Made by a program: the position numbers and the translations under genes
Part shown: piece after piece, positions 1,896 to 18,698 of the stretch
Numbering within the stretch: the first letter of the stretch is position 1
Layout: each line of letters starts with the position of its first letter
Assembly: GCF_016925535.1 (NCBI RefSeq)
Contig: NZ_CP070496.1
Coordinates: 2,604,001-2,668,000 of the forward strand
Length of the DNA: 64,000 nt
Source: Natronoglycomyces albus
GTDB lineage: Bacteria; Actinomycetota; Actinomycetes; Mycobacteriales; Micromonosporaceae
Direction of reading: 5' to 3'
Notes under the pieces: generated by a model
Database searches by the model: none
Seen by the model: the letters and a program-made list of their open reading frames with translations, nothing else
What the model was told of the DNA's origin: nothing

Positions 1896-2004
1896 TCTTC
1901 CACGCATTTGCACCCGGTGTTCCTGCCACGGCAGTTTGATTCCAGGTTCGATTGGCTCCTAAACAGTCAACGAGAGCCGCTCCAGTTTCCGGGCCAAGCT
2001 TATG

Positions 2005-2328
2005 TTACTGGCGGGAGCCTAAAGATGGAATTCGGGTCCGAGGGTGGTGCGCTACCGCCGCCCGACAATTGTCCAGTTGGTGGTCGAGGGCGCCTTGGTT
2101 GAGGTGTCTGACCTGGTAGTTGAAGCCTTCAGGATCGGAGAGGTTGGTTTCGATGCGGATCGTACCGTCGAGGTTGCGCAGTACGAGCCGTTCAAAGTCG
2201 GTATGGAAGATGACTCCCCCTGATTGTGAGCAGACGAACTCGGCTGCGGTGGTCACGATTTCGGCTACCACTGCAAAGTAGGCGCTCTTCGACACGATCT
2301 GTTTAGGGTCGAACGTAATGGCAAGCAT
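2005..2328 (-). CDS. Hypothetical protein, 107 residues
   Basis: I do not recognise this protein. It begins with a beta-strand-like segment followed by a hydrophobic stretch (SAYFAVVAEIVTTAAEFV). It has one Cys, a central LRNLDGTIRIETNL segment and a basic tail. A GAGAGG box six bases before the ATG supports the start. It stands alone between the tRNA and the lipoprotein genes. Nothing nearby suggests a function. Confidence 0.6.
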   Translation of the reverse strand: MLAITFDPKQIVSKSAYFAVVAEIVTTAAEFVCSQSGGVIFHTDFERLVLRNLDGTIRIETNLSDPEGFNYQVRHLNQGALDHQLDNCRAAVAHHPRTRIPSLGSRQ

Positions 2329-2561
2329 CGTCGGCCTCTCAAGACCAAGACGTTCTGCGTACTAGAGCAGAGAGGAGACAGGCTTAGTCAGTACTGTCAT
2401 GTCGAGTACGTCACGGTGGCACCGCGTAGAATCGGCCGGGTAGATGATCACGGCGTTGAGCACGCAGGAGAAGTAGGTGATCTTCGGCGGCACCATAAAG
2501 GAACACCCATTCCCAGTTCCCTCGCTGACCCGGCACCCATTAAATATCGACCGACATAACC

Positions 2562-3611
2562 TCAGGAACCGAACTCGTGAGTTTCCAGCAACATCTGAGC
2601 TCGCTCCAGATATTCGGCCGCTTGCTCCAGGTAGACAGAACTATTGACTTCAAGCTCTGTATGTATCAATCCCACGCTCTCGGCATGCGACTGCTGTTGC
2701 ACCTCATTAATGTCGTTGTCCTCCAAGCATTGGAGATCTGCCTTTGCCATATTAATCTCACGTTCATGGGAGGCCCGAATTTTTTCCACCGGAGGCTCTT
2801 CGAGAGTATATTGACTGTCAAGCTCTAGCCACATCATGTAGATGCTGTCTTGTGCATGGAGGGGATTGTCCATTCCAGGGAATCCAAAGTCGCTCATGCA
2901 TTCTGCCCATGATTCATGAGCTGCAACCACATCGGGGTGTGTCCGGAAGTCAAATTGCCCGGCAGGGCCAGCTTCGTTTTCCAGCTGTTTGAAGGAATAG
3001 ACATTTTCTCCATAGAGCGCCTCCAGGACCTCGCCCTCACAGCCCTCGGAGTAGTAATAGATCTCCCCCACCCCATTAATAACTGTATGGACCACTCCCG
3101 CTTCTTCCCAGTGGCTTGCAGGAACTTCACCATCAAGCATATTTAGCCGCGCGACACTCTCGCCCCGCAGGGCCACCTGATATTCATAATGATATGTCGA
3201 AGTTTGGAGTTGGTACTCGCTAAGAATGGACTGTCTGACACCGTCTTGGTCCCAGACTCGATCAATCAGGTCGCCATATCCAAGTTCGTCTACATTCTCA
3301 GGGTCAGCTCCAAGAACCAGTCCGAACTGTTTACCCAAAATCTGGTCCTCATCCTCTGGCCACTCGATCGCTTCCTGGTGTATATCGAACCCAGCTTGCT
3401 CCATACACATTATGTTCAGGCGCTGGACAACATTCCTGAGTTCGAAACGTACCATCGTGTTGTGCAACCAATTTTGCTGAAAAGTCTGCAATTCCTCTTC
3501 GCTGAAATCATGCTCGCCTGGGTCGGTAGCGCACGCGGACACTGTCAACGCCACGCCTATGGCGAGTACAAATCCACGAACCAAGCTGCTAATCCTACTC
3601 ATTATCACCAT
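2562..3611 (-). CDS. Putative secreted lipoprotein with conserved Cys pairs
   Basis: 349 residues. An N-terminal signal peptide ends in a lipobox (VSAC, Cys about 27), so the mature protein should be lipid-anchored outside the membrane. The body is acidic and rich in aromatic residues, with Cys in contexts such as MCMEQAGF, GCEGEVLEALYG, SWAECMSDFGFPG and DLQCLEDN. The SW-x-ECM and LDSxY patterns recur in the next gene (3860-4516), which makes the two likely relatives. No enzymatic motif is seen. An alternative ATG lies three codons downstream. The surroundings are lower in GC than the rest of the window, which hints at acquired DNA. Confidence 0.75.
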   Translation of the reverse strand: MVIMSRISSLVRGFVLAIGVALTVSACATDPGEHDFSEEELQTFQQNWLHNTMVRFELRNVVQRLNIMCMEQAGFDIHQEAIEWPEDEDQILGKQFGLVLGADPENVDELGYGDLIDRVWDQDGVRQSILSEYQLQTSTYHYEYQVALRGESVARLNMLDGEVPASHWEEAGVVHTVINGVGEIYYYSEGCEGEVLEALYGENVYSFKQLENEAGPAGQFDFRTHPDVVAAHESWAECMSDFGFPGMDNPLHAQDSIYMMWLELDSQYTLEEPPVEKIRASHEREINMAKADLQCLEDNDINEVQQQSHAESVGLIHTELEVNSSVYLEQAAEYLERAQMLLETHEFGS

Positions 3612-3859
3612 TCATGTGAGCCGAAATCATAGAATCGGGTATGGAGCGACATTCCTATGTATTGAATCTTTCTCATCCTGGCGTTATTGCTAGCTTAGAC
3701 TTCCTCGTGTTTGTGGAGTTGATGGCAATTACGCCACAAGATCAATCCCTTTATCTCTACATGCCCCGGAAATGCCGAAAAGACGAGGCCAAGACGCTAA
3801 GACCTCGAAATGAAGAACCTCACTCAACGTGCCAGTAACATCCATATTAGACCTGATCT

Positions 3860-4516
3860 TTAGCCATCTGAATCATGCGAGTTCATCACAGTATCGAAAT
3901 GCGATAGCCTGATTTCCTTGGCACATTCATCGACAAAGTGTGCCTTATTTCTCGGCGCCTCGATCTTGAACTCACTGATATTTTCCGGCAGCGCCTCGGG
4001 AGTTTTCACACCGGCATCGGAAAGACACTGATCTACTTCAAGAGCTATATCGTTATTCATGAATTCTGGGTTGAGAAGCGCATATTCTAGCTCAATATCA
4101 TCAAGGTACGCTTCGCGACACTCTCTCTCAATGTAACTGTAGGCGTCAAACCATTGGTCACTTTCTTCGAGAGTATCGATATACACGCTATCCATATCAA
4201 TCCAGTGCTCCAAAGCCGTGTTGGTGATTGGGTCCCAACCTGCGGAGACAACAGGTATATCGTTCGTTTGCATGCACTCTACCCAGGATTTAAAAAAGGC
4301 CTCATAATCAGCTTTGGAAACTCCACCGCTCTCCAATGCCTCTTGCTGAGCGGCAATCCCCGCTTCCATTTCAGATTCAGTCAGAAAGCGTGGATATTCA
4401 ATTTCTGACTTGCCCTCGACCTCCGGGGAGGAACACGCCGCTATGGCCAGCACCAATAGGATGCTAAACAGACACACCCTAAGCAAGGAATGGAACTGAG
4501 AGGTAGGTTCTTGCAT
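3860..4516 (-). CDS. Putative secreted lipoprotein, relative of the 2562-3611 product
   Basis: 218 residues from the ATG at 4516 (an in-frame TTG lies three codons earlier). A hydrophobic signal segment ends at a lipobox-like AIAAC. The mature part is acidic and carries SWVECMQTNDIP, IDMDSVY with ESDQWFDAY, and further Cys in ERECREAY, DQCLSDAG and DECAKE. The SW-x-ECM block and the Asp-Ser-x-Tyr block are shared with the larger neighbour, suggesting duplication and divergence. There is no known catalytic motif. The 248-base gap to the upstream neighbour (3612-3859) contains no gene. Confidence 0.72.
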   Translation of the reverse strand: MQEPTSQFHSLLRVCLFSILLVLAIAACSSPEVEGKSEIEYPRFLTESEMEAGIAAQQEALESGGVSKADYEAFFKSWVECMQTNDIPVVSAGWDPITNTALEHWIDMDSVYIDTLEESDQWFDAYSYIERECREAYLDDIELEYALLNPEFMNNDIALEVDQCLSDAGVKTPEALPENISEFKIEAPRNKAHFVDECAKEIRLSHFDTVMNSHDSDG

Positions 4517-4552
4517 CGAGATCAACCTTCAAATAACCAGAGTTCCGACTAT

Positions 4553-4596
4553 GCAAATCGATGCATCATGGATCTATCCATGATGCATCGATTTGC
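4553..4596 (-). terminator. Perfect 20-bp-arm hairpin
   Basis: Two perfectly complementary 20-base arms separated by TCTA, lying between the end of the small Cys-rich gene and the lipoprotein gene, both on the - strand. No T-run is present. It may terminate the upstream transcript or protect RNA ends. Confidence 0.6.
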
Positions 4597-4664
4597 ACTG
4601 TATAAGCAATCGGAAACGTCGACTTAGTGACACATACCTACACCGAACATATCATAATAACAAG

Positions 4665-5045
4665 CTACGGCGTAGTATACCATCGTACATTTGCTCCGGC
4701 TCTATCGTGCCTCTCATACGTGAGAGTACGGAAGACATCGCATTGACCGCAGCCTTTATGCATTGCAGTCGTAATCGTACAACCAGGGTCAAGGGTGTTA
4801 GTCCCGATTGTTGCACTATTATCCCAGCTTCGGGACCTCGGAAAACAGTCGAAGGATCCGGCTATCCACGAATGACCTTCACACGTTCCGCGGGGAGCAT
4901 ACCAGGTCCACGCCTGGGTATGGGCTGTATTGATTGAACCTTTAACGGTTCCGGTGCAAGCACTTCCGCGCGTTTGCTCTCCACGCAGATAACTGGCTTC
5001 TGCCGGCTCTGCGGCAATGATACTTGCGAGGGCCAACATCATCAC
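4665..5045 (-). CDS. Small exported Cys-rich protein, start uncertain
   Basis: About 126 residues by the first ATG. The N-terminus is hydrophobic and ends in AEPAEASY, a likely signal-peptidase site. The mature part (about 105 residues) is rich in Cys, Trp and Gly (SACTGTVKG, WTWYAPRGTCEG, DPGCTITTAMHKGCGQCDV), with six Cys probably forming disulfides. The reading frame stays open upstream and encodes RRILAVVAAC, which would complete a normal signal peptide with an arginine pair, yet no ATG, GTG or TTG lies at its beginning. The true start may be a rare codon or the gene may be slightly damaged. No family recognised. Confidence 0.55.
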   Translation of the reverse strand: MMMLALASIIAAEPAEASYLRGEQTRGSACTGTVKGSINTAHTQAWTWYAPRGTCEGHSWIAGSFDCFPRSRSWDNSATIGTNTLDPGCTITTAMHKGCGQCDVFRTLTYERHDRAGANVRWYTTP

Positions 5046-5444
5046 ACAAGCGGCTACGACAGCTAGAATTCGTCTAGCTTGCTGGCCGGAGGCCAGCCTA
5101 AAAGGAAGGGGAATTTCATCTCTTTCGGGCGGGGGTAAAAATTCGCTCCAAGCCCGGCTGATTTATCTATTTCAGACGGGTAGCTCATGCATTACGTTAT
5201 TGTTGCCGAAGTTCGCTTGTCAAGCCATTGATTGGCGATCTGCCATGAATAGCGAATCTTTGCTGCTCACGACCGCCCTAGTAATGCATATGACTTCCCT
5301 CACTCTCGAGTGAGCCTTTTCCTTCCTGGTTCAAGTGAGGGGGGTGGTGTTATTGGGGGCTTGGGAAAAGCTCCTGGTAAAACATCTAGGGACTAAACAA
5401 GCCATGCCACCAGGGGCTTGTCGAGTCGTTCCACTAGGCCGCGT

Positions 5445-6160
5445 TGCCGTTTTTCGAGTAGGGCCGTGAATGTTATAGCTGAGGTCATCGGGACCCACCG
5501 GGTAGCTCTCGATTCACGGTGGAGACGAGTAGACACAGGTAAGATTGCCCCTGATGGCCCTTAGCTCCCTGTGCCAAGGCCAGGCCTATGCCAATATTAC
5601 TGCTGGAATTGGCCCCTCCAGGGACACCATGACTCGCCGAATCAATGAAACCATCGACCTCATAGTCAATTCCGGCCAGGGCATGCGGCCTCAGCTGCGG
5701 CGAGCCAAAAGAAGATGCGATCCCGTCTGCTTGTGGATCGCACCTTCATCGCCTGCAACCACTTGTCCACCAATAGGCCCCTACACCACACGTGGCGAAG
5801 TAGTCGCTGAGCAGAACTCTCTCAAGCTTCTTTGCTAACCGAGGTGATATTCGATAAAACCGGCATTCTAGGCATGCTGGGCGCAAAGCGACATGCGCGA
5901 CACATTGGTATCGTCAGTTGCCACGAACGCTGGCACCCCAGTGGCAAATGAGACCATCGAACTCGTTGCCGCTCAGCAGATCTCCTACAGCGCAGCGACA
6001 AAGGGCCCGTGTGCGCCCGCGCAGGAGATCCGAGAATTGCTCATCGACTCAAGCGTGGAGGTGGGCCGAGCCCGCATCCCGACCGCCATCCGGGCCCCAC
6101 CTGCTTCCACCAGGGCAAGTGCGACTGACCATGCCTCAATCTTATGGTAAGATACAGGCC
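5445..6160 (+). pseudogene. Decayed IS5-family (DDE_4-type) transposase
   Basis: No intact frame remains, but the order of an IS112/IS5-type transposase can be followed through frame changes. First comes SSRAVNVIAEVIGTHRVALD followed by SRWRRVDTGK (5454 onward, the N-terminal region that typically reads SRWRRLDPG). Next is a helix-turn-helix-like segment GQAYANITAGIGPSRDTMTR with INETIDLI (about 5580-5670), then LVDRTFIACNHLSTNRP (about 5727-5780), resembling the first catalytic Asp region. Several stops and shifts separate the blocks. No inverted ends could be identified. The rest of 5046-6349 contains no other gene. Confidence 0.6.
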
Positions 6161-6349: not shown

Positions 6350-6715
6350 ATGGCGATCGAGGGAAGTCGGTTTACTCGACGTAAGGAAGATTTCGAGTGC
6401 GCGAATTGTCGACGCGACATCAAGGGGAACGGTTACACAAACCATTGCCCGCATTGCCTTTGGTCGCGACATGTCGACATTTCTCCGGGTGACCGCCAGT
6501 CTTCTTGTCGCGGCCTCATGGAACCCATTGGCTCGGTCTATGAGGGCGGGGGATACATCATCGTGCAGCGCTGTCAGTCTTGCGACCACCTGTGGCGTAA
6601 CAAGGCATCCCGACGAGACTCCACAGAGGCGATCCTGGCTTTGATGGGAAAACCGGTTCCTTGGAACAAGTTATGCGCCTCCCCCATCCATTTGCCGCCG
6701 CGTGCGAGGAACTAG
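6350..6715 (+). CDS. RNHCP domain protein
   Basis: 121 residues. The sequence contains the signature that names this family (here TNHCPHCLWS) flanked by further zinc-type Cys: CANC near residue 18 and CQSC near residue 77. It is probably a small zinc-ribbon protein; its cellular function is unknown. An AGGA box stands about nine bases before the ATG. The 3' end overlaps the next gene by about 43 bases, so its last residues may be unconserved or the neighbour may start later. Confidence 0.85.
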   Translation: MAIEGSRFTRRKEDFECANCRRDIKGNGYTNHCPHCLWSRHVDISPGDRQSSCRGLMEPIGSVYEGGGYIIVQRCQSCDHLWRNKASRRDSTEAILALMGKPVPWNKLCASPIHLPPRARN

Positions 6716-8794: not shown

Positions 8795-9808
8795 CTAATA
8801 GGTGAGCATGGGCGCGGCCGTGGTCTCGGTGCGCCGCAAGACAAACCAGAAGTTGCCGTTGAGCTCAGACGCGAAGTCGTCCAGTTTGACCGGCCCCTCT
8901 GGGCTGTCAAAGTGAACCGAGGCGACCTCCCACTCCCCACTTTCGGTGAAGACCTTCTGCCATCCGTCGACCGGCATGCTCAGCTGGGTCTGGTATTCGC
9001 GCAGGATTTCGGTGTCGTCCTCGGCGATGATCACGCGCTCAAGATCCATCATGGATGCCGGATCGGTGCGTTCCTTCGACCACGCCACGGTATAGGAGCG
9101 GCCGTCGTCGCCGTTGATCGTCCACCTCCCCTCCGATCCATCGGGGGTGGGCTCGGACGACTCCGTGCGCGTGTCGACCATGACCAGATAGACCCCGCCA
9201 GAGCGCACGCTCAGCGCCGCCATGTGCAAGTGGCGACGCAGGCTTGCCCAAGAGGGCAGGTAGCGCAGGGTATTGAGCGCCGCGATCGCGTAACCGTATC
9301 GGTTGAGTGCCGAGAACGACGAGATGTCAGCCATGAAGATCGTCGGCGACTCCCGCTGGGAACTCTGCGCGTCCTCGATCACCTTGGATTGCAGCCAGCG
9401 CACCCCGGGCTCGGAGATGTCCACCCCGTCGAGTTCGAAACCACGCTGGTTCAAGGGCCGCAGCACCCGTCCCGTTCCGCAACCGAATTCGATGCCGCGA
9501 ATACCGGTCGGGTCCGAAATATGCGTAGCGATGAAGTCGAGTTCCGTGGAGAGGTCCCATCCGAAGACGGCTTCGCACAGCTCGGGTTGTTCGAAGAGTC
9601 GCCCGCCGATCGGGTACGCATAACCGTCTTTGACCAGTGCGTCCGCCTGGTCACGCGTGACGATGTGGTTCTGGTCGTAGTGGAGCGTCCGGAGTTTGCG
9701 GCTCGTTCCCACCATCGCCGCCGTGTCCGGCCACGTTAGATTCACGGCTGGGTCGATGTAAATAAATGATCCGTCCTCGACTTCAACACATCGTGTGACA
9801 CCTAGCAT
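8795..9808 (-). CDS. SAM-dependent methyltransferase at the end of the RiPP cluster
   Basis: 337 residues. A family-specific N-terminus (about 95 residues) precedes a class I methyltransferase core: motif I GIEFGCGTGRVLRPL, motif II LDGVDIS and a post-core LSVRSGGVYLVMVDT. An AAAGG box stands seven bases before the ATG. It is the last gene of the - strand run that starts with the precursor peptide, 52 bases after the glycosyltransferase gene. By analogy with enteropeptins, where a methyltransferase acts on ornithine made by a peptide arginase, it could N-methylate the modified peptide. That role is inference; a small-molecule substrate is equally possible. Confidence 0.82.
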   Translation of the reverse strand: MLGVTRCVEVEDGSFIYIDPAVNLTWPDTAAMVGTSRKLRTLHYDQNHIVTRDQADALVKDGYAYPIGGRLFEQPELCEAVFGWDLSTELDFIATHISDPTGIRGIEFGCGTGRVLRPLNQRGFELDGVDISEPGVRWLQSKVIEDAQSSQRESPTIFMADISSFSALNRYGYAIAALNTLRYLPSWASLRRHLHMAALSVRSGGVYLVMVDTRTESSEPTPDGSEGRWTINGDDGRSYTVAWSKERTDPASMMDLERVIIAEDDTEILREYQTQLSMPVDGWQKVFTESGEWEVASVHFDSPEGPVKLDDFASELNGNFWFVLRRTETTAAPMLTY

Positions 9809-9860
9809 GTAACACCTTTCTCCATCGTGAGATTCTCGTTCGGGCCTGAATACGACGAGT

Positions 9861-10991
9861 TCATACTCTGAGCACGTCTGTCCACGCTTGAACGATCGGC
9901 TCGGTGTCGAGGGTTTGCCTACGCTCGTGGCGCGCGGCGACGAGCTTGTCCCACTGGCACTCCACGAGGTCCTCCAGCGCCGTGGTCCACGTGGCTGGAA
10001 ATTCCTCGCTCCACGGTTCGCTCGCCAGCACCAGGCCCGCTGAACCGACCAGCTCTGGGAGCGCGCCCTGATCGCTGACCACGGGGACTAGGCCAGCCCT
10101 GAGGGCCTCGATAACCGTGTTGCACCCGGTCTCCCCCGTATAGTCCGGATGCAGAAAAATGGCGTGTTCGCGCAGCAGACCCGCCATGTCATTGACCGAC
10201 GAGCTGGGGCGAAACCTAAGGTCCCGGCAGGATTGCGCGTATTGGGCGAAGGGGCCCGCGTCGACCCAACCGCCTCGACCGTTGGGGTAGATCACTCGGC
10301 ACGTCTCCTCCTGATACAGGCGTGGATCGGCAAAGCAGTCGATGGTGAATCCACGTTTGGTCGCGGTGTGGGCGATTTTCGCCACCGCCGCCAAGGCTTT
10401 GCGGGGATGGGACGTGTGCACGATCCGTTGGCGGGCAACAGTGGGTGGGGTTTCCTCCCATGGCACATGGGAGGTGAGGTTGTAGATCACCCGGGACGTC
10501 GCTTCCGAATAAAGGAAGTCCCGCCGCCAATTGTCGCGGTGCCATTGGGAGGCGAAGACGACAGCGTCAAAACGTTCCAGGTACGGGCGCAGGCGCTTGC
10601 CTATCACCGGCATCGTCTGACGGTGGATGGCGACCATGTCTAGTGAGGAGTCCTCTGTCAACAAGACGTGGCGCGCCTGGGAAAGTCGTGAGAACATCTC
10701 GTCGGGGGCACTGTAGTCACGCAACCACAGCAGGCGCACATGCGGGCCGTCCTCGATGTCGCCGATGTGTTTCACTGGTTTGAACTTCACTGTGGACACC
10801 CGTGGCTGCCCCGAGAATCGTCCATAATAGTGGACTTCTATACCGAGTCCGGCCAGCTGACGGGCTAGGTTCAGCACGACCACCTCAGAGCCTGGGAGCG
10901 GATGAGAGAAAGGGTCCTCACCGCCAAGCACGATGTCGCTGCGGTTGACGATGACGACCTGCGGTGTCCGGTCCCGTCGCACAGTACTCAT
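9861..10991 (-). CDS. GT-B glycosyltransferase, GT4-like
   Basis: 376 residues from the ATG at 10991, which overlaps the stop of the WD40 gene by ATGA. The N-terminal domain begins with a Rossmann strand (QVVIVNRSDI) and contains GSEVVVLNLARQLAGLGIEV, a typical acceptor-domain helix. The C-terminal domain shows the EX7E element in ETGCNTVIEALRAGLVPVV followed by SDQGALPELVGSAGLVL. A nucleotide-sugar-dependent retaining transferase is expected. Within the cluster it might glycosylate the peptide, which has Ser and Thr in the core, but this has no direct support. Confidence 0.85.
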   Translation of the reverse strand: MSTVRRDRTPQVVIVNRSDIVLGGEDPFSHPLPGSEVVVLNLARQLAGLGIEVHYYGRFSGQPRVSTVKFKPVKHIGDIEDGPHVRLLWLRDYSAPDEMFSRLSQARHVLLTEDSSLDMVAIHRQTMPVIGKRLRPYLERFDAVVFASQWHRDNWRRDFLYSEATSRVIYNLTSHVPWEETPPTVARQRIVHTSHPRKALAAVAKIAHTATKRGFTIDCFADPRLYQEETCRVIYPNGRGGWVDAGPFAQYAQSCRDLRFRPSSSVNDMAGLLREHAIFLHPDYTGETGCNTVIEALRAGLVPVVSDQGALPELVGSAGLVLASEPWSEEFPATWTTALEDLVECQWDKLVAARHERRQTLDTEPIVQAWTDVLRV

Positions 10992-13900
10992 GAGAGACGC
11001 TCCGCTCCCAGCGTATTCAGCAGCGCCGGGGTCAAACGCAGGTGAAAAATCCCGCCGCTGGCAGTACCCACCACCAGTGAATGCCGGTGCCCCACGACCT
11101 GGGTCGGCCGGTTGGGCAGAGGGACCGAAACCCCTGTGGCACGCAAGGGGTTCCACAGCAACAGTTCCTTTTGGTCGTCGATGGCGGCCACGACCGGGGT
11201 CGAGCCCACGCAGGCCACCGCGACGCTCATAAACCGCGCCTCACTGCGGTAGGTCTGGGCCAGGAGGCTGAAATCGCGTAGATCCCACGCTTGGAGGCAT
11301 CCGTTAATGTCGGCGGAGGCCAGTAGGCCAGCGCCGTTGATGGTGACGAAGGCGAGATCGTTGAGGACGCCGGTGTGTCCGGGCAGTTCGGCGAGCATCC
11401 GTCCACTGGTGGGTTCCCACAGGCGAAGCTGTCCGTTGAATGACCCTGAGGCTAGGATCGTCGTGTCCGCATACGAGATGACCTCGACGCAGCGGACCCA
11501 GTCCGGATGGGCCGCAATCGCGGTCCGCATCTGCCCCGATTCCAGGTCCCACATCTCTAGGTAGCCGTCAAACGTGCCCGAGACAAGAATGTCGGTTCCC
11601 TCGAATGTGCCGAAGGCGAGCCCACCCACGATGCCCTTGGTGCCTTTGAGGTTGCGTACCGGCTCCATGGTGGCTTGGTCCCAGAGCCTGATGAGGCCGT
11701 CGTCGGCGGCGGTGGCCACTACCGCCTGGCCCTGGTGGTGGCCCAATGCCACGGCCATGAGGTATTCCTCGTGGTGGACCGAGGCGAGTTGGCGCGGCTG
11801 GGGTTGGAGCTCCCACAGTCGGGTTCTTTGGCTGGCCAGCGCTGCCGCCACCCGGAAGTGGTCGCCGCGCCGAGTCACCGCCAGCGAACGTACCGGATCG
11901 TCGGCTCTTGGCGATGTCGCCGGCGAAGCCTCGATCGGCCACCAGGTGCGAACGGTCGCGTCGAAACCAGCACTCACCAGCGTCGGTACGCCGTTGGCGG
12001 TGGAAAACGCGACCGAGAGCACCCCTTGTTCATGGCCTCGCAACACAGTGATCTGTTCTTTGGTGCGCACATCCCACAGGCGGACGGTTTCGTCATCCGA
12101 TCCCGTCGCCACGACGTCGACTCCGGCGGCGTTGCCGAAGGCCACTGAACGGACCCAGTCGGTGTGTCCTTCCAGAGTCGCCACTTCCGTTGCGCTGTCG
12201 ACGTTCCACAAGCGCACAGTGTTGTCAAATCCCGCTGAGGCCAGCAGGGGTTGACCCGCGACCACCGCGAACGCGATATCGCCCACGCCGCCTCGATGGC
12301 AGGCTTCGATGCGTGCGTATTCGCCTCCCAGGAGGTCCCATATCCGGATGGTTCCGTCGTCGGAACACGAGGCGATGAGGTTACGGCCGTCGAATTGGCA
12401 CAGTACTGCCCTCCACACCCAATCCTCGTGCCCGACGATGGTGTTCAACACCCCGGTGGTTTCCAGGTCCCACACTCGTATCGTGCGATCGGCCCCGGCC
12501 GATATCAGGACGTCTCGGCCCTCTATCTGGCCGAACTCAACCGACCAGATTCCGCGGGTGTGCCCTTTGAGTACCGCCAAGGTCGCGCCGTCGCGCGGGT
12601 TCCACAGGTGAATCGACTTGTCGAATCCAGCCGAGGCGATGATGGGGTTTTCCTCGAAGGTGCCGATGGCGACCGCGCTTACGGCCGACTTATGTTCCTC
12701 GTAATACCCCACGACGCTGCCATGATCGGTTCCGCGCAACACAACGGTGCCGTCGGCCGAGGCCGATGCGACGACTCCGCGTCCATCGACGTTTCCGGTT
12801 GCCACCTCCCACACCCAGTTGTCATGCATCCGCATTACTTGAGCCGATTGAACTGGCCGATCGTCGACGTAGGTCACGTGCCAGGGTCGCTGGCTTTCTG
12901 ACTCCCTCGTGGTGGGGCCCTCAGCGCACATTCGGTCGCCATTGGCGGCCGGTTCAATCAACGCGGCCAACATTTCCGCTTGGGCGCTGCGCATTGCCGG
13001 GTCGAGTTGGGGCGACATCAGCTCCGGGTTGGCGTGGGCCTGCGCCATGGCCATGGAACGTGGTTCGGCGCCCGGAACCGGTTGACAGGGCAATAGCCGA
13101 TGCAGCGAGGTGGGATCGACCGCTTCGTCAAACCCGTACCGGGTCAGGTACTTCGACAACTCGCCGGCTTGGGCGGCGTGAAAGGCCAAGTGCGGCACGG
13201 CATAGGAGCGGGTGAAGGCACTATCGGGTATGCGCTGCCACAGCTGCTGGGCGATTCTGGCATGGACACGGGCGGCGTCATACAGTTCCTGGCTGACCTG
13301 CTGGAAATGTCGCACGAGCTGTACATGGGAAAGCCGGTAGGTTGTGTGTTCCGAATCGGTTTCGACCAGCCACGGCACGTGCGTAAGTACGGCGTTGACG
13401 TCGGTCTCGGTAAACGGTGTTCCCACGAGCGCCTCCGCCAAGAGCGGCCACACCTCTTTAGGGGGCGCTCCCTGGCCCTGTGCCCACGCTAGCGCGCACA
13501 ACATGGCCCGCACCCTAGTGCGGGTGGTGGGCTCGATGTGGGCCAGGTCCTGTGCAATCGCGGTGGCGAGGCTGGCGCGATGCGGTGACATTGGTTCGGG
13601 TTCAGCGCCGGTTACCTCTTCGGCCAAGGCGAGCCGACGCACATGGGCGCTAGCCAACAGTTTCGCCACCAGGAAGTTTCCTCCGGCTCGTAGCGCCAAG
13701 GTGTTGGTCAGCGCGGGCAACGAAGGCTCTAGCATCCCATCGGGGTTGGCGCGGGTGCGCAGGATGCCGGTGAGGTAGGACCGGAGATCTCGCAGGTTCT
13801 GGGGCAGCGAAGCGGGCTGGTCCATGGAGATCACCGTGTGCGGGCGCAAGCAGGTGCGGATCAGCCCGGCCCCTTTGGCTGGGGTCGTGGTTCGCAGTGG

Positions 13901-14389
13901 AACAGGGTGGTCCGCCTCGATAGCGGTCACGACCCGAATTCCATCATCGCTTAGCTTCCGCACCCCCAACGCCAAGGTAAGGGCGTCGTCGTAGGCGGTC
14001 TCGTCGAGGGAGTCAATGAGGACCACTGGTGGCAGGCGGTGTTTCGTCGCCGCAGGTGCTGGCCTAGCCCGCAGGCGCGCGTTGACCTGATCGAGCACTG
14101 TCTGGGCGCTGTGGGCGCGCGCGTCGATGTGCACGTCAATCAGGCCCGGCGGGTAGGTGAGCTCCTTCGACGGGTGGTTCCGGGCGCGGGCTTGCTGTTG
14201 CGGTGCCGATGCCAGCGCTCGCAGCAGCGTGGTCTTGCCAGCCCCAGCTTGGCCTTCCAGGAGCAGGACTCCGGCAGGTTCGCAGGAGAGCCAGTCGACT
14301 ATGCGCGCGGTGATCTCGGGGCGAGCCACGACGGGCTCGGTTCCCAATAGCGAGGTCTTGCCGGGTATGGGTCCGCCAGTGCCGGTCAT
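10988..14389 (-). CDS. P-loop (STAND/NACHT-like) ATPase with 14 WD40 repeats
   Basis: 1133 residues from the ATG at 14389, which has a GAGGA box seven bases upstream (a TTG at 14425 would overlap the MFS gene). The N-terminus carries Walker A GQAGAGKT (46-53) and Walker B VVLIDSLDE (122-130), followed by a helical region. From about residue 520 I count 14 WD40 repeats, each closing with an LWD/LWN-type motif, which suits two seven-bladed propellers. The architecture is that of signal-transducing STAND ATPases. It sits inside the RiPP cluster, so it may act as a sensor, scaffold or regulator. No DNA-binding or effector domain is obvious. Confidence 0.88.
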   Translation of the reverse strand: MTGTGGPIPGKTSLLGTEPVVARPEITARIVDWLSCEPAGVLLLEGQAGAGKTTLLRALASAPQQQARARNHPSKELTYPPGLIDVHIDARAHSAQTVLDQVNARLRARPAPAATKHRLPPVVLIDSLDETAYDDALTLALGVRKLSDDGIRVVTAIEADHPVPLRTTTPAKGAGLIRTCLRPHTVISMDQPASLPQNLRDLRSYLTGILRTRANPDGMLEPSLPALTNTLALRAGGNFLVAKLLASAHVRRLALAEEVTGAEPEPMSPHRASLATAIAQDLAHIEPTTRTRVRAMLCALAWAQGQGAPPKEVWPLLAEALVGTPFTETDVNAVLTHVPWLVETDSEHTTYRLSHVQLVRHFQQVSQELYDAARVHARIAQQLWQRIPDSAFTRSYAVPHLAFHAAQAGELSKYLTRYGFDEAVDPTSLHRLLPCQPVPGAEPRSMAMAQAHANPELMSPQLDPAMRSAQAEMLAALIEPAANGDRMCAEGPTTRESESQRPWHVTYVDDRPVQSAQVMRMHDNWVWEVATGNVDGRGVVASASADGTVVLRGTDHGSVVGYYEEHKSAVSAVAIGTFEENPIIASAGFDKSIHLWNPRDGATLAVLKGHTRGIWSVEFGQIEGRDVLISAGADRTIRVWDLETTGVLNTIVGHEDWVWRAVLCQFDGRNLIASCSDDGTIRIWDLLGGEYARIEACHRGGVGDIAFAVVAGQPLLASAGFDNTVRLWNVDSATEVATLEGHTDWVRSVAFGNAAGVDVVATGSDDETVRLWDVRTKEQITVLRGHEQGVLSVAFSTANGVPTLVSAGFDATVRTWWPIEASPATSPRADDPVRSLAVTRRGDHFRVAAALASQRTRLWELQPQPRQLASVHHEEYLMAVALGHHQGQAVVATAADDGLIRLWDQATMEPVRNLKGTKGIVGGLAFGTFEGTDILVSGTFDGYLEMWDLESGQMRTAIAAHPDWVRCVEVISYADTTILASGSFNGQLRLWEPTSGRMLAELPGHTGVLNDLAFVTINGAGLLASADINGCLQAWDLRDFSLLAQTYRSEARFMSVAVACVGSTPVVAAIDDQKELLLWNPLRATGVSVPLPNRPTQVVGHRHSLVVGTASGGIFHLRLTPALLNTLGAERLS

Positions 14390-14399
14390 GCCGCGTTCC

Positions 14400-15683
14400 T
14401 CACTGTTGACCTTGCTCGGCGCCAACGGAGGCTTTACGCATGGTGTCGCTGAAGCTGGCTGCGGCCTCGGCTAGTCCCCGGTAGGCAAGGCAGAAGGCGA
14501 CCAGCAACCCGATGCCGCTAAAGAGGAACACCGCTCGGAGGCCGAATAGGTCGCCTAGAAATCCCCCAAGGATGAACCCGATGGGGGCTAGGCCGCCGCC
14601 GAGGAGGACGAACACTGAGGTGACCCGGCCGAGTAGTTCGCGTGGCACGAGGGCCTGGCGGATGCTGGTGCTGGTCGCGTTCCAGGTGATGAGGGGAATT
14701 CCCTGCAGGAAGAACACCGCGCCCACCAGGAGTGGCGCGGAGAGGAAGGCCGGTGGCAGCGTCAAGATGGCGTAGCCGACCACCGAGATCATGAGGATGC
14801 GCGTTGGCCCTATCGATTTCATGATGCGCCCTGCGAACATTCCTCCGATGATGGCGCCCACGGAGGTGACGCCGAAGATGAGGCCGAAGCCGAGGCTGCC
14901 CAGGCCTAGCACCTCGGTGACGTAGAGAACCAGTACGCCCTCGGGCATCCACCCGAAGATGTTCCAGGCCGCCACGATGATGGCGATGCTGCGCAGGCCC
15001 CGGTGGTTGTTGAGCCAGCGGGCACCCTCCTTGATCTCTTGCCAGTAGGCTCCCTTGCGCTCTTCCTCGCCTTCCTTCTGTGCCTTTGCCTGCCTGGGGA
15101 AGGCCGTCTGGTTGGCGAATCGCACGATGATCAGAGCCGCGATTCCGAAGGTGAGACTGTTGACCGCGAAGGGGACGAACAGGGCCATGCCGAAGATGAG
15201 CCCGCCCGCCGCCGGGCCGAGCACTCCGTTGCCGATTTCGGTGACGCTGGCCTTGTATCCGTTGACTTTTGCCAGGTCCTGGGGGTGCACGATCCTTGGC
15301 AGGAACGTGGCCGAGGAAATGTCGTGCAGCAGCCCGCCGGTGCCCAGGGTGAGGGCCAGGATGAACAAGTGCCACAGCGATATTTCGTCAAAGAAGACCA
15401 AAGTGGCGAAGGTGGCGAGCACGAGGCAGCGCAGGAAGTCGACGACGACCATCGCGCGGCCCTGGTGGAGTCGGTCCACGAACGCGCCGATGGGCAGCGA
15501 GAAGATCAGGCTCGGGATCATGGTCGCCGCCGCCAGCGACGCGATGATGCGTGGGTCTTGCGTGAGCGTCGCCCCCAGCAGCGGCAACGCCACGAAGTAG
15601 ATTCCGTCTCCGAAGTTGGATATGCCGGTGGCGGTGACTAGGCGTTTCCAATGGGACGGGTTCTGTAGGGACACCTCAGACAT
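14400..15683 (-). CDS. MFS transporter (DHA-type), probable exporter
   Basis: 427 residues from the ATG at 15683; GTG or ATG starts up to seven codons earlier are possible. About 12 transmembrane segments are visible. The loop between helices 2 and 3 has the MFS pattern IGAFVDRLHQGRAM, and a basic central loop (AKAQKEGEEERKGAYW) separates the halves. The family includes macrolide and multidrug exporters. It lies 4 bases after the arginase-like gene and 10 bases before the WD40 gene. In this context it is the natural candidate for exporting or giving immunity to the peptide product. Confidence 0.88.
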   Translation of the reverse strand: MSEVSLQNPSHWKRLVTATGISNFGDGIYFVALPLLGATLTQDPRIIASLAAATMIPSLIFSLPIGAFVDRLHQGRAMVVVDFLRCLVLATFATLVFFDEISLWHLFILALTLGTGGLLHDISSATFLPRIVHPQDLAKVNGYKASVTEIGNGVLGPAAGGLIFGMALFVPFAVNSLTFGIAALIIVRFANQTAFPRQAKAQKEGEEERKGAYWQEIKEGARWLNNHRGLRSIAIIVAAWNIFGWMPEGVLVLYVTEVLGLGSLGFGLIFGVTSVGAIIGGMFAGRIMKSIGPTRILMISVVGYAILTLPPAFLSAPLLVGAVFFLQGIPLITWNATSTSIRQALVPRELLGRVTSVFVLLGGGLAPIGFILGGFLGDLFGLRAVFLFSGIGLLVAFCLAYRGLAEAAASFSDTMRKASVGAEQGQQ

Positions 15684-15687
15684 CTGA

Positions 15688-16470
15688 CTAGTTCTCCCCA
15701 TCTTTATTGAGTTCTCTCGTATCGGCACCGACGGTTCGCCGGTCATCTCTCATGGCGTCAACCAGCGCGGACACGATCGTGAGCACTGAGGAGGTCTCGG
15801 CGGGGGTCGACCGGTCCGATGCCCATTCCACCAGGTCGCAGCCGAGGATGGGCGGGCCGTGGGAGATCGTCTCGATCTGGTTGGTCAAGGTGGCCACGGT
15901 GCACTCCATTGTTTCCGGGACGGTTTCGGGGAACGTGACGGAGGAGAATTCGACCGGGTCCAGGTAGTCCACGTCCACCGTCACATAGGAGTACTGCGGG
16001 TTGCGCACGTGCGCGATAGGCGCGGGTACGGGCAGTTCCCGGCAGCCGTAACGTTCGATCGGCAGCCCGAACCGCTTTTGCACGAAGTGGAAAACCGAGT
16101 AGTTGTTCAACGTTGGCGTCACGTGCGCGTCGTGGTGGGCGTCAAACTGGTGCACGATGCCGTGCCCGTACCAGTGGGTGATGGCTTGCAATGCTGAAAA
16201 ACTCAGGCGATGGTCTCCGCCGAGCAATAGCGGCCGTTCACCGGCTTCGAGAATCGATGTCGTGAGCGAGGTGATCGCCAGCGGGATCACCTCCCCCAGC
16301 CTCCGATTCAAGAAGATCGGGGCGTTGATCCCCTCGACCTGGTCGAGGATCTCGTGCCATGTCGGGCCGTTATAGCCGGTGCCGGGTTTGCGTGACGAGG
16401 CGTCCCAGTCGCAGACAATCGGAGTGACGCGCGGCCGGTCACCCCGGTCGGCCACGCCCTCAGACCGCAC
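15688..16470 (-). CDS. Arginase/ureohydrolase-fold enzyme, candidate peptide arginase
   Basis: 260 residues with the manganese-binding motifs of the ureohydrolase family: GGDHR at 84-88 (usually GGDHS), DAHHD at 110-114 with His116, and DVDYLDP at 166-172. All metal-ligand positions look filled. The GTG at 16470 is chosen for its GGAAGG box eight bases upstream; it overlaps the radical SAM gene by 11 bases. A later GTG at 16453-16455 is the alternative. Peptide arginases such as OspR (landornamide) and the enteropeptin enzyme convert peptidyl Arg to ornithine. The adjacent precursor has exactly one Arg, so I infer the same role here. Confidence 0.85.
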   Translation of the reverse strand: MRSEGVADRGDRPRVTPIVCDWDASSRKPGTGYNGPTWHEILDQVEGINAPIFLNRRLGEVIPLAITSLTTSILEAGERPLLLGGDHRLSFSALQAITHWYGHGIVHQFDAHHDAHVTPTLNNYSVFHFVQKRFGLPIERYGCRELPVPAPIAHVRNPQYSYVTVDVDYLDPVEFSSVTFPETVPETMECTVATLTNQIETISHGPPILGCDLVEWASDRSTPAETSSVLTIVSALVDAMRDDRRTVGADTRELNKDGEN

Positions 16471-17725
16471 CGAACTTGCCTTCCAAGTATCGCTTCGGGA
16501 AATCCACAAACGTCACAGTGCTGTTCTTATTGATATTGCATGCCATGACATCGGGGGCCGTGACGTAACCGGACTCGACATAGGCGTTGGAGCGGCATCC
16601 GCCGCCACAGGCCGAGCCCACAGCGCATTTGCTGACGTTTTCGCAGTTGGTGTAGCGAAACGAGTTGAAGTATTCGCTGTCGTACCAGGCCGTCGGCAGG
16701 TCCACTGTACGAATGTCGGGGCCGGTGAAGTCGGCGGACTCGCGGCTGGTGAGCGTGGGGCAGGCGGCGATTTCCCCGCTGGCCGTGACGTACACCAGCG
16801 AATAGGCCACACCGCATTCCGGTTCGAAGTCCAGCAGATTTGCCGATTCGCATACTTTCCCGGCCCGCACATTGTCGGCCAAGTAGGGGCGCAGGAAGTC
16901 CCAGAACTCGGGCGCGGTCAGTCCGTTGTCGTAGTCGAGGGCGCCGCCGGTGGCGATGACCCGGTCGACGTTTAGCGTGGTCTTGGGGTATCGCCGGGCC
17001 ATGAACTCGATGGTGTCGCCCAGGTATTCGAGGTTTCCCTTGTGCGCCATGAGGGACAGCTTGATGTCGAGCCCCTGTTCCTGCAACGCGTCGAGCCCGC
17101 GCATGGTGCGCTTCAACGCCCCGCGATGGCCCCGACTTTCGTCGTGTACCGACTCGATGTGGGAGTCGAGCGAAACTTGCACCGCCGAGATGCCGATGGA
17201 TTTCATGAACGCGGCTTCGGCGTCCTTGATAAGGGTGCCGTTGGTATGAACGGTCACTTCCATGCCGTAGGAGCGGGCGTCTTCGAGGTAGGTGCGCCAG
17301 TTCGGTTCCAGCAGGAATTCACCGCCGGTGAAGTCGATTTGTAGTAGGCCCATCTGGTCGGCCTGCTGGATGAGCGGCCGGACGATGTCGGGGCCGATGG
17401 CTTCTTTGCGGAAGGGGCCGGAGACCGAGTAGCAGTAGCTACAGCTGAGGTTGCACCGCAGCGACACTTCAATCTGCATGCGCCGCAGATGCGGGCCGCC
17501 GCTGACCTCGCGAAAGACGATGTCCTCGCCGAGCCAGCCGGCCTTGGAGAAGGATTCGACGGCGTTGGGGTAGGCCTGGTGAACCTGATCGGTCGTACTG
17601 CTGCTGGCGTTGCGTGCCATGGCTAGGACTTTTCCGATTGATCCCGACATGACCGGCCTCGTTTTCCCAGCGTTGACGAGGTAGGTCCTCTGACCGGTCT
17701 TGTCCCATACGATTCGGTTGGGCAT
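16460..17725 (-). CDS. Radical SAM/SPASM peptide maturase
   Basis: 421 residues from the ATG at 17725 (AAGGA box eight bases upstream). The radical SAM cluster motif C91-x3-C95-x2-C98 is followed by FTGGEFLLE. The C-terminal SPASM-type domain supplies Cys304, Cys322, Cys361, Cys367, Cys373, Cys377 and Cys396, including the ACGGGC segment, for auxiliary iron-sulfur clusters. The first 75 residues may act as a small recognition domain. Such enzymes install thioether or C-C links in ribosomal peptides. The 264-base gap between the precursor stop and this start contains a weak inverted repeat but no gene. Confidence 0.93.
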   Translation of the reverse strand: MPNRIVWDKTGQRTYLVNAGKTRPVMSGSIGKVLAMARNASSSTTDQVHQAYPNAVESFSKAGWLGEDIVFREVSGGPHLRRMQIEVSLRCNLSCSYCYSVSGPFRKEAIGPDIVRPLIQQADQMGLLQIDFTGGEFLLEPNWRTYLEDARSYGMEVTVHTNGTLIKDAEAAFMKSIGISAVQVSLDSHIESVHDESRGHRGALKRTMRGLDALQEQGLDIKLSLMAHKGNLEYLGDTIEFMARRYPKTTLNVDRVIATGGALDYDNGLTAPEFWDFLRPYLADNVRAGKVCESANLLDFEPECGVAYSLVYVTASGEIAACPTLTSRESADFTGPDIRTVDLPTAWYDSEYFNSFRYTNCENVSKCAVGSACGGGCRSNAYVESGYVTAPDVMACNINKNSTVTFVDFPKRYLEGKFGAV

Positions 17726-17989
17726 GTCGGGTTCCTTCGGGGTCGGGTGTGGGTCTGTCCTCATCCCCGTCGGGTTCATGGAGACAGGGCTATGCGCGTA
17801 GCCGTGGGCGCAAGGGGGCGCCGGTCCACGAACTGACTGGGGATGAGCGAAGGCGGAGCTTAAGTAAGGCACGTGACAGGGTGACGATGGAGAGCCTGCT
17901 ATCGCGATAACGCCTTGCGCCAAAGGCAAGTAGTTACACATTTTCCACTTCATGGCCTCTTATCACGGGCCTTTTAACAAGCTCTCGGA

Positions 17990-18142
17990 CTAGGTTGCCG
18001 AGGGGCAACGGGAGGCGAAAACCTCGAAGATGAGTTCGTCGTCTTCGTTCGTCTCCGTCTCAGCTACTTCTTCGATTGCGGCGGCGACTTCGGTCGCAAC
18101 CGTCTCGTCTTCGATGGCGGGGTTCTCAGGGTGATTGCTCAT
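17990..18142 (-). CDS. RiPP precursor peptide, 50 residues
   Basis: 50 residues, TAGGAG box nine bases before the ATG. The first 40 residues are strongly acidic (Glu/Asp rich, no Lys, no Arg), as in many leader peptides. The C-terminus reads ELIFEVFASRCPSAT. The peptide has a single Arg (45) next to a single Cys (46), which fits the two enzymes encoded just downstream: an arginase-fold enzyme and a radical SAM/SPASM maturase. A 6-bp hairpin (GTTGCC/GGCAAC) covers the last codons and may set the ratio of precursor to enzyme mRNA. I know no described family with this core. The F-A-S stretch recalls FxS-type peptides, but it is not at the end. Confidence 0.85.
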   Translation of the reverse strand: MSNHPENPAIEDETVATEVAAAIEEVAETETNEDDELIFEVFASRCPSAT

Positions 18143-18698
18143 TGTGACGCTCCTAGCGAGTAGTCATCATGGGGATACGCTGCAACTGACTCAGCGCGTG
18201 ATCAAACTAACATGAGCCAGTTTCGGGCGCAAGTACTGCGGCGCCCCCTCCTGCGAAAACACTGCCAAAGACCTGCCTTTTCCTGTTCAGTCCCCGTACC
18301 GGTTCCGACGCAGCTTTCGGATATCGCACCTTTTAAGCGCAATGCGGCATATACATCTCATCATGCCTTCCTGAGGAAAGCGCTCACATTCGGAATGCGC
18401 TCTCATGCCGATCATGAATGGGATGAACAAACCCGGTTCACATAGGCCGGACCGTCTTTGTCCTGTATCCATAATGGCCTTCCGCGATAACCAAATTGGA
18501 AAGAGACTAAACGACAATCAGCTGTTTCCACGGCATTGCGATTGTTTATCGCTACCTGTGTTGAAAGGGGGGCGACCCTTCCCACGCGCCATTGCATTCT
18601 TGCGAGTGAACAGCCAAAGAGGACTGACCGGGCGATTGACACATGGCAAGGTACGGGGCACTATCGCCATCCTGCGAAACCATCGTTGTTATGCCTGC
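18143..18698. other. Gene-free stretch upstream of RiPP precursor
   Basis: About 556 bases with no supportable gene in either direction. It should contain the promoter of the RiPP cluster and the 3' end region of the 18699-19286 gene, both of which run leftward. No convincing -35/-10 pair or operator was found by eye. Its far end is lower in GC and may include old mobile-element debris, but nothing is recognisable. Confidence 0.5.

Follow-up and report, generated by a model that had tools for sequence, protein, structure and literature searches.

Does a 50-residue open reading frame (ORF) on the minus strand of the Natronoglycomyces albus chromosome (contig NZ_CP070496.1) give rise to a small modified peptide, and are its single Arg and single Cys the residues on which the neighbouring enzymes act? 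The question was raised by an initial annotation of the 64,000-nucleotide stretch of DNA analysed here (hereafter the window; positions 2,604,001 to 2,668,000), which paired the peptide with two enzymes, took its acidic leader lacking Lys and Arg as meaningful, and held such a match between enzymes and peptide composition to be unlikely by chance.

The precursor gene and its neighbourhood

The ORF translates from an ATG start into MSNHPENPAIEDETVATEVAAAIEEVAETETNEDDELIFEVFASRCPSAT, which ends in FASRCPSAT and contains one Arg, one Cys, one His, and no Lys; as annotated, residues 1-44 include one His and neither Lys nor Arg, and the sole Arg and Cys are Arg45 and Cys46 (Table 1). An AGGAG stands 7 nt 5' of the ATG. 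On its own, this composition is just mildly unusual: given the local Lys plus Arg frequency, a Lys/Arg-free stretch of 44 residues has a p of about 0.007, about 10% of 50-residue sequences are expected to contain an Arg-Cys pair, and about 0.8% to contain Arg-Cys-Pro. The codon usage score is above average, but 19% of similarly sized ORFs in the window score at least as high, and for so short an ORF it is not decisive. The spacer between the precursor and the radical SAM (rSAM) gene has strong RNA structure, as has its counterpart in one related cluster described below (L151; z-score -4.9 against shuffles), and is possibly a partial terminator or stabiliser; a read-through hairpin there, raising the precursor over the enzyme, is plausible.

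Behind the precursor, on the same strand, follow genes for the rSAM enzyme, a PF00491 arginase, a major facilitator superfamily (MFS) transporter, a protein with a P-loop and WD40 repeats, a glycosyltransferase, and a methyltransferase. The rSAM gene starts with the ATG at 17725, preceded by AAGGA, and its 3' end is overlapped by the arginase gene. Both enzymes of the annotated pair are thus present, but the set is larger than proposed, the methyltransferase and MFS transporter being found with them in all five clusters. The P-loop/WD40 protein, which gave only a weak PADLOC match, and the glycosyltransferase are extras of the window: neither has a relative in the other four clusters, and membership of the P-loop/WD40 protein in the cluster is therefore uncertain. 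We detected no MNIO or JmjC homologue in the window and no dedicated protease for leader removal.

Two features of the wider surroundings were also recorded. A small protein with CxxC pairs, which we take to be RNHCP-like, is encoded near the cluster in the window (6350-6715, plus strand) and, at ~60% identity, near three of the related clusters (L151:6632-6928, L150:7159-7449, and L149:12349-12053); its gene may belong to the neighbourhood or be there by chance. Separately, a segment at window positions 2001-6000, following closely on a tRNA-Met (1821-1895), has a GC content of only 0.51 against a window mean of 0.61, and no integrase was noticed there among the larger ORFs; it is possibly acquired.

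Table 1. Features of the precursor locus (window coordinates)
Feature	Position	Strand	Basis
Precursor peptide gene	17990..18142	-	50-aa ORF with AGGAG and homologues in four other clusters; F-x(2,3)-A-x-R-C-P invariant
Arg45-Cys46-Pro47 codons (CGT TGC CCC), proposed modification site	18002..18010	-	Invariant in 5/5 precursors; triplet as in enteropeptin core MKGRCPPS (PMC12395415)
AGGAG ribosome-binding site of precursor	18150..18154	-	Sequence; the four homologous precursors are each preceded by AGGAG
Precursor-rSAM spacer with strong RNA structure	17727..18000	-	z-score -3.4 against shuffles
Radical SAM/SPASM peptide maturase	16460..17725	-	Pfam Radical_SAM 1e-18; orthologues in four clusters
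Arginase-family (PF00491) enzyme	15688..16461	-	Pfam Arginase 4.8e-14; exact start uncertain
MFS transporter, probable exporter	14400..15746	-	Pfam MFS_1 3.9e-41; orthologue in all four other clusters
1145-aa protein, N-terminal P-loop and WD40 repeats	10988..14425	-	Inside gene run, between exporter and glycosyltransferase
Glycosyltransferase (GT4-like)	9861..11156	-	Inside gene run
Class-I SAM methyltransferase	8795..9808	-	Pfam Methyltransf_23 2.6e-9; match below cut-off to NCBIfam daptide_MTase (1.2e-12); an orthologue in each of the other four clusters

Related clusters and the Arg-Cys-Pro triplet

Relatives of the cluster are scattered. Within the family to which the window belongs, none of 354 other genomes holds an orthologue of its rSAM enzyme at E at or below 1e-30. 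Among 395 other genomes sampled from the phylum, the best matches to this enzyme are just 26-35% identical, and a single-protein scan of genome contigs with it gave no match. Ordinary arginase alignments returned only agmatinase-like matches from viral contigs. An arginase pattern search was steered by alignments in which the window arginase was joined by artificial, scrambled rows preserving the active-site motifs only, and its matches were always confirmed by tblastn with the real window protein; among the matches listed, it led to Nocardiopsis eucommiae (CP074402.1, record L064; 48% identity, E 1e-68). Three further clusters, all in ~13 Mb genomes (L149-L151), were found among 341 genomes of the Nocardiopsis eucommiae family, and others may exist beyond those in the matches listed. 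Of the plasmid records listed in arginase and rSAM searches, none carried a cluster of this kind, the best 30 arginase matches in 398 sampled Bacilli genomes, where a KgrD relative was sought, had no related rSAM gene within 1.5 kb, and matches in viral contigs to a DNA pattern for the enteropeptin stretch MKGRCPP look like chance. Altogether, precursor, rSAM, arginase, methyltransferase, and MFS genes occur together in at least five clusters from three lineages, a distribution so scattered that it suggests horizontal transfer or frequent loss. Two observations stand apart: a ~380-aa arginase-family protein is encoded among genes for PLP-type enzymes on a Mammaliicoccus plasmid (L051:4298-8978) and in a Bacilli genome (L160), possibly an unrelated biosynthetic cluster, and in Nocardiopsis eucommiae the rSAM gene runs across two frames and the MFS match is broken into three pieces (L064:7626-8974, 9666-10878), whether through sequencing errors or because the cluster is decaying.

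The precursors share a motif rather than a sequence. The Nocardiopsis eucommiae peptide is MTTMQLMDKAILEELNSAFEETERADSTADTSEDLTFEITAGRCPSKT (L064:7466-7612), and those of L149-L151 read MELINDLQVS[KR]QSEEDLQAVLQIAFVSAYRCP, with A or S next, then a variable stretch and the conserved tail EEFQLAW-x-APQSA. F-x(2,3)-A-x-R-C-P recurs in all five, three of which come from closely related genomes (L149-L151), while leader and tail differ among the three lineages; invariant are Met1, one Glu, a Phe, the Ala two before Arg (Phe39 and Ala43 in the window), and Arg-Cys-Pro itself. The spacing from Phe to Cys varies by one residue among lineages, the residue before Arg is Ser, Gly, or Tyr, no precursor has Lys-Gly, and after Arg-Cys-Pro the L149-L151 peptides vary in sequence and length. 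The expectation that the Arg-Cys pair would be kept as the leader drifts is thus borne out, with leaders and tails otherwise sharing little, and no homologous precursor lacking Arg or Cys was seen in the four further clusters. By contrast, the Lys/Arg-free leader has to be given up as a meaningful feature: the Nocardiopsis leader carries one Lys and one Arg and the other three carry Lys or Arg at position 11, so that the lack of basic residues is an incidental peculiarity of the window.

This conservation also bears on whether the ORF is a gene. That it is a chance reading frame beside rSAM, arginase, and methyltransferase genes of ordinary metabolism might be argued from its shortness and indecisive codon usage, but an AGGAG, at a similar distance from the start in all four homologues, and an ORF with Arg-Cys-Pro lie directly upstream of an orthologous rSAM gene in five of five clusters, and between any two of L149-L151 the first 33 codons show 2-4 synonymous changes and 0-2 conservative ones. 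We consider this explanation extremely improbable and rejected it, together with a role in arginine metabolism. The ORF, only mildly unusual in composition (p about 0.007; pair about 10%), stands well above chance through its conservation in five of five clusters. A short gene beside modifying enzymes, with an invariant Arg-Cys-Pro and a varying leader and tail in five clusters, is the layout expected of a cluster for a ribosomally synthesised and post-translationally modified peptide (RiPP), and the ORF very probably encodes the precursor of one.

The ~13 Mb genomes add an upstream ParB-like protein, a JmjC_2 protein, an MNIO (PF05114), and a possible MNIO partner. In L149:3021-7430 (minus strand) and the matching parts of L150 and L151, genes for JmjC_2, MNIO, and a 276-aa protein without a Pfam match stand beside the arginase and rSAM genes. 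This suggests that these genomes encode a relative of the window peptide that is modified more heavily and, with MNIO and JmjC confined to one lineage, the products would therefore differ among lineages.

Enzymes, proposed pathway, and rival explanations

The catalytic motifs of both core enzymes are intact. In the rSAM enzyme, CxxxCxxC comprises C91, C95, and C98, and it and the SPASM cysteines are kept in the orthologues; Pfam finds Radical_SAM in the window protein, and Radical_SAM plus SPASM in the L149 orthologue. The window protein scores far short of the cut-off for all NCBIfam maturase models shown, the closest being WgkB, StsB, and the mycofactocin maturase. Its N-terminal ~75 residues are predicted to run beta-beta-beta-alpha-alpha-alpha as in PqqD/RRE domains, in a low-confidence model (pLDDT about 55-69) too weak for a fold search. 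In the arginase, the metal-ligand positions H84, D107, H109, D111, D163, and D165, within GGDH, DAHxD, and DxD motifs, are invariant in five orthologues; the protein is predicted to adopt a ureohydrolase fold (pLDDT 77), with Foldseek matches to agmatinases at E 1e-11, and a loop after DAHHD common to all five, L-[NS]-N-Y-S, may point to a non-standard substrate. Two other PF00491 proteins are encoded elsewhere in the window's genome, and the cluster copy is thus not its sole arginase-type protein. A 644-aa PF00491 protein of that genome (L054:1375-3309, minus strand) has a long Pro/Glu-rich N-terminus and GGDC in place of the ordinary GGDH. The MFS orthologues are 42-53% identical. The conserved methyltransferase matches class-I Methyltransf_23/25 models and is nearest, well below cut-off, to the NCBIfam daptide methyltransferase model; the clusters have no second methyltransferase in common.

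A pathway is suggested by enteropeptin, a gut antibiotic made from the core MKGRCPPS by the kgr cluster of Enterococcus cecorum. There, an rSAM enzyme first bonds the sulfur of Cys to the alpha-carbon of the Arg before it, forming a thiomorpholine; the PF00491 arginase KgrD acts next, producing ornithine from the thiomorpholine product only; and an Fe-S methyltransferase finally N-methylates the ornithine (PMC12703449, PMC12395415). In the window, the rSAM/SPASM enzyme would bind the precursor leader, probably via its N-terminal RRE-like domain, and join the Cys46 sulfur to the Arg45 alpha-carbon in a six-membered thiomorpholine; the arginase would then hydrolyse the Arg side chain to ornithine, the methyltransferase would probably methylate the peptide, most simply at the new ornithine amine, and the MFS protein would export the product. 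Because the same two enzyme types meet the same Arg-Cys-Pro triplet, a RiPP with enteropeptin-like first two steps, thiomorpholine by rSAM and then ornithine by arginase, is the best and a fairly likely explanation, and methylation as the third step follows less surely. The gene set, its conservation, the intact catalytic motifs, and the conservation of Arg-Cys-Pro are established here, and with them the annotated view of Arg45 and Cys46 as substrates of the neighbouring enzymes gains support from five precursors in three lineages; the thioether bond, the order of reactions, and the methylation site we infer by analogy with enteropeptin.

The main rival keeps the RiPP and moves the bond. The rSAM enzyme may link Cys46 elsewhere, for example to Ala43 or Phe39 in a larger thioether ring, with the arginase separately making ornithine from Arg45. 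It owes its place to the GRC-type RaS-RiPPs, named for a Gly-Arg-Cys motif, which use their Arg-Cys pair otherwise and carry a Glu-Cys thiolactone instead (PMC13361665); Phe39 and Ala43 are invariant too and could also be reaction sites, and the bonds formed by SPASM enzymes of the nearest NCBIfam models are of various kinds. However, the described pair of rSAM and PF00491 arginase acts on adjacent Arg-Cys followed by Pro, the very triplet conserved here, and the Phe-to-Cys spacing is not constant, so we regard another bond as unlikely. In a further reading, the rSAM enzyme would modify Arg alone or an aromatic residue, leaving Cys for glycosylation, lipidation, or, in the MNIO lineage, MNIO chemistry. 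The glycosyltransferase in the window and the MNIO and JmjC proteins of the three ~13 Mb genomes are consistent with this, as are biphenomycin-type clusters (pbs, bpm), where MNIO, rSAM, arginase, and hydroxylase enzymes come together around FRF (PMC12257519). Yet Cys is common to all clusters and these additional enzymes are not, and the biphenomycin B12-rSAM, PF12640 arginase, and FRF motif were not seen here; this reading appears quite improbable.

Returning to the thiomorpholine-ornithine reading, we tentatively entertain a broader possibility: the clusters may form a separate actinobacterial RiPP family whose Arg-Cys thiomorpholine/ornithine unit is independent of the enteropeptins, with its own methyltransferase and, in one lineage, MNIO and JmjC oxidations of the core.

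Comparison with known systems

We found no description of such clusters from actinobacteria in the openly accessible literature, where thiomorpholine-ornithine peptides are reported only from enterococci and streptococci, and an earlier description elsewhere is possible. A second enzyme set, in Actinomycetota, would provide an independent view of the key residues, with Arg-Cys-Pro fixed and Lys-Gly not, and adds new arginase and methyltransferase types that likely act on peptides. The clusters are testable candidates for new antibiotic-like peptides, among which the MNIO and JmjC lineage may hold the more heavily modified product.

Among other ornithine-forming systems, the OspR-type peptide arginases (e.g., of landornamide) likewise convert Arg to ornithine in a RiPP precursor but belong to PF12640, an assignment we rejected since PF00491, with its GGDH, DAHxD, and DxD motifs, was the only family found. 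Biphenomycin-type clusters also use rSAM and arginase enzymes to make ornithine in the core, and their MNIO and JmjC/cupin hydroxylase have counterparts in the three ~13 Mb genomes; in contrast, their precursor carries FHAFRF and is served by a B12-dependent rSAM enzyme and a PF12640 arginase. This type was rejected for the window, with no FRF in its precursor, Radical_SAM as the sole Pfam domain of its rSAM enzyme, and no MNIO homologue.

Closest are the enteropeptins, of the KGR subfamily of RaS-RiPPs, with which the clusters share adjacent Arg-Cys followed by Pro (MKGRCPPS versus ASRCPSAT, AGRCPSKT, and AYRCPS) and the combination of an rSAM enzyme, a PF00491 arginase, and a methyltransferase. 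They differ in occurring in Actinomycetota rather than Bacillota, in a class-I rather than Fe-S methyltransferase, in precursors without the Lys-Gly-Arg core, and in the extra MNIO and JmjC enzymes of one lineage. Because the Fe-S methyltransferase and KGR core are absent, and kinship of the rSAM enzyme and arginase to KgrC and KgrD is conjectural, we do not file the window system as an enteropeptin; by analogy, its pathway would nonetheless work like that of enteropeptin in enzyme set and site.
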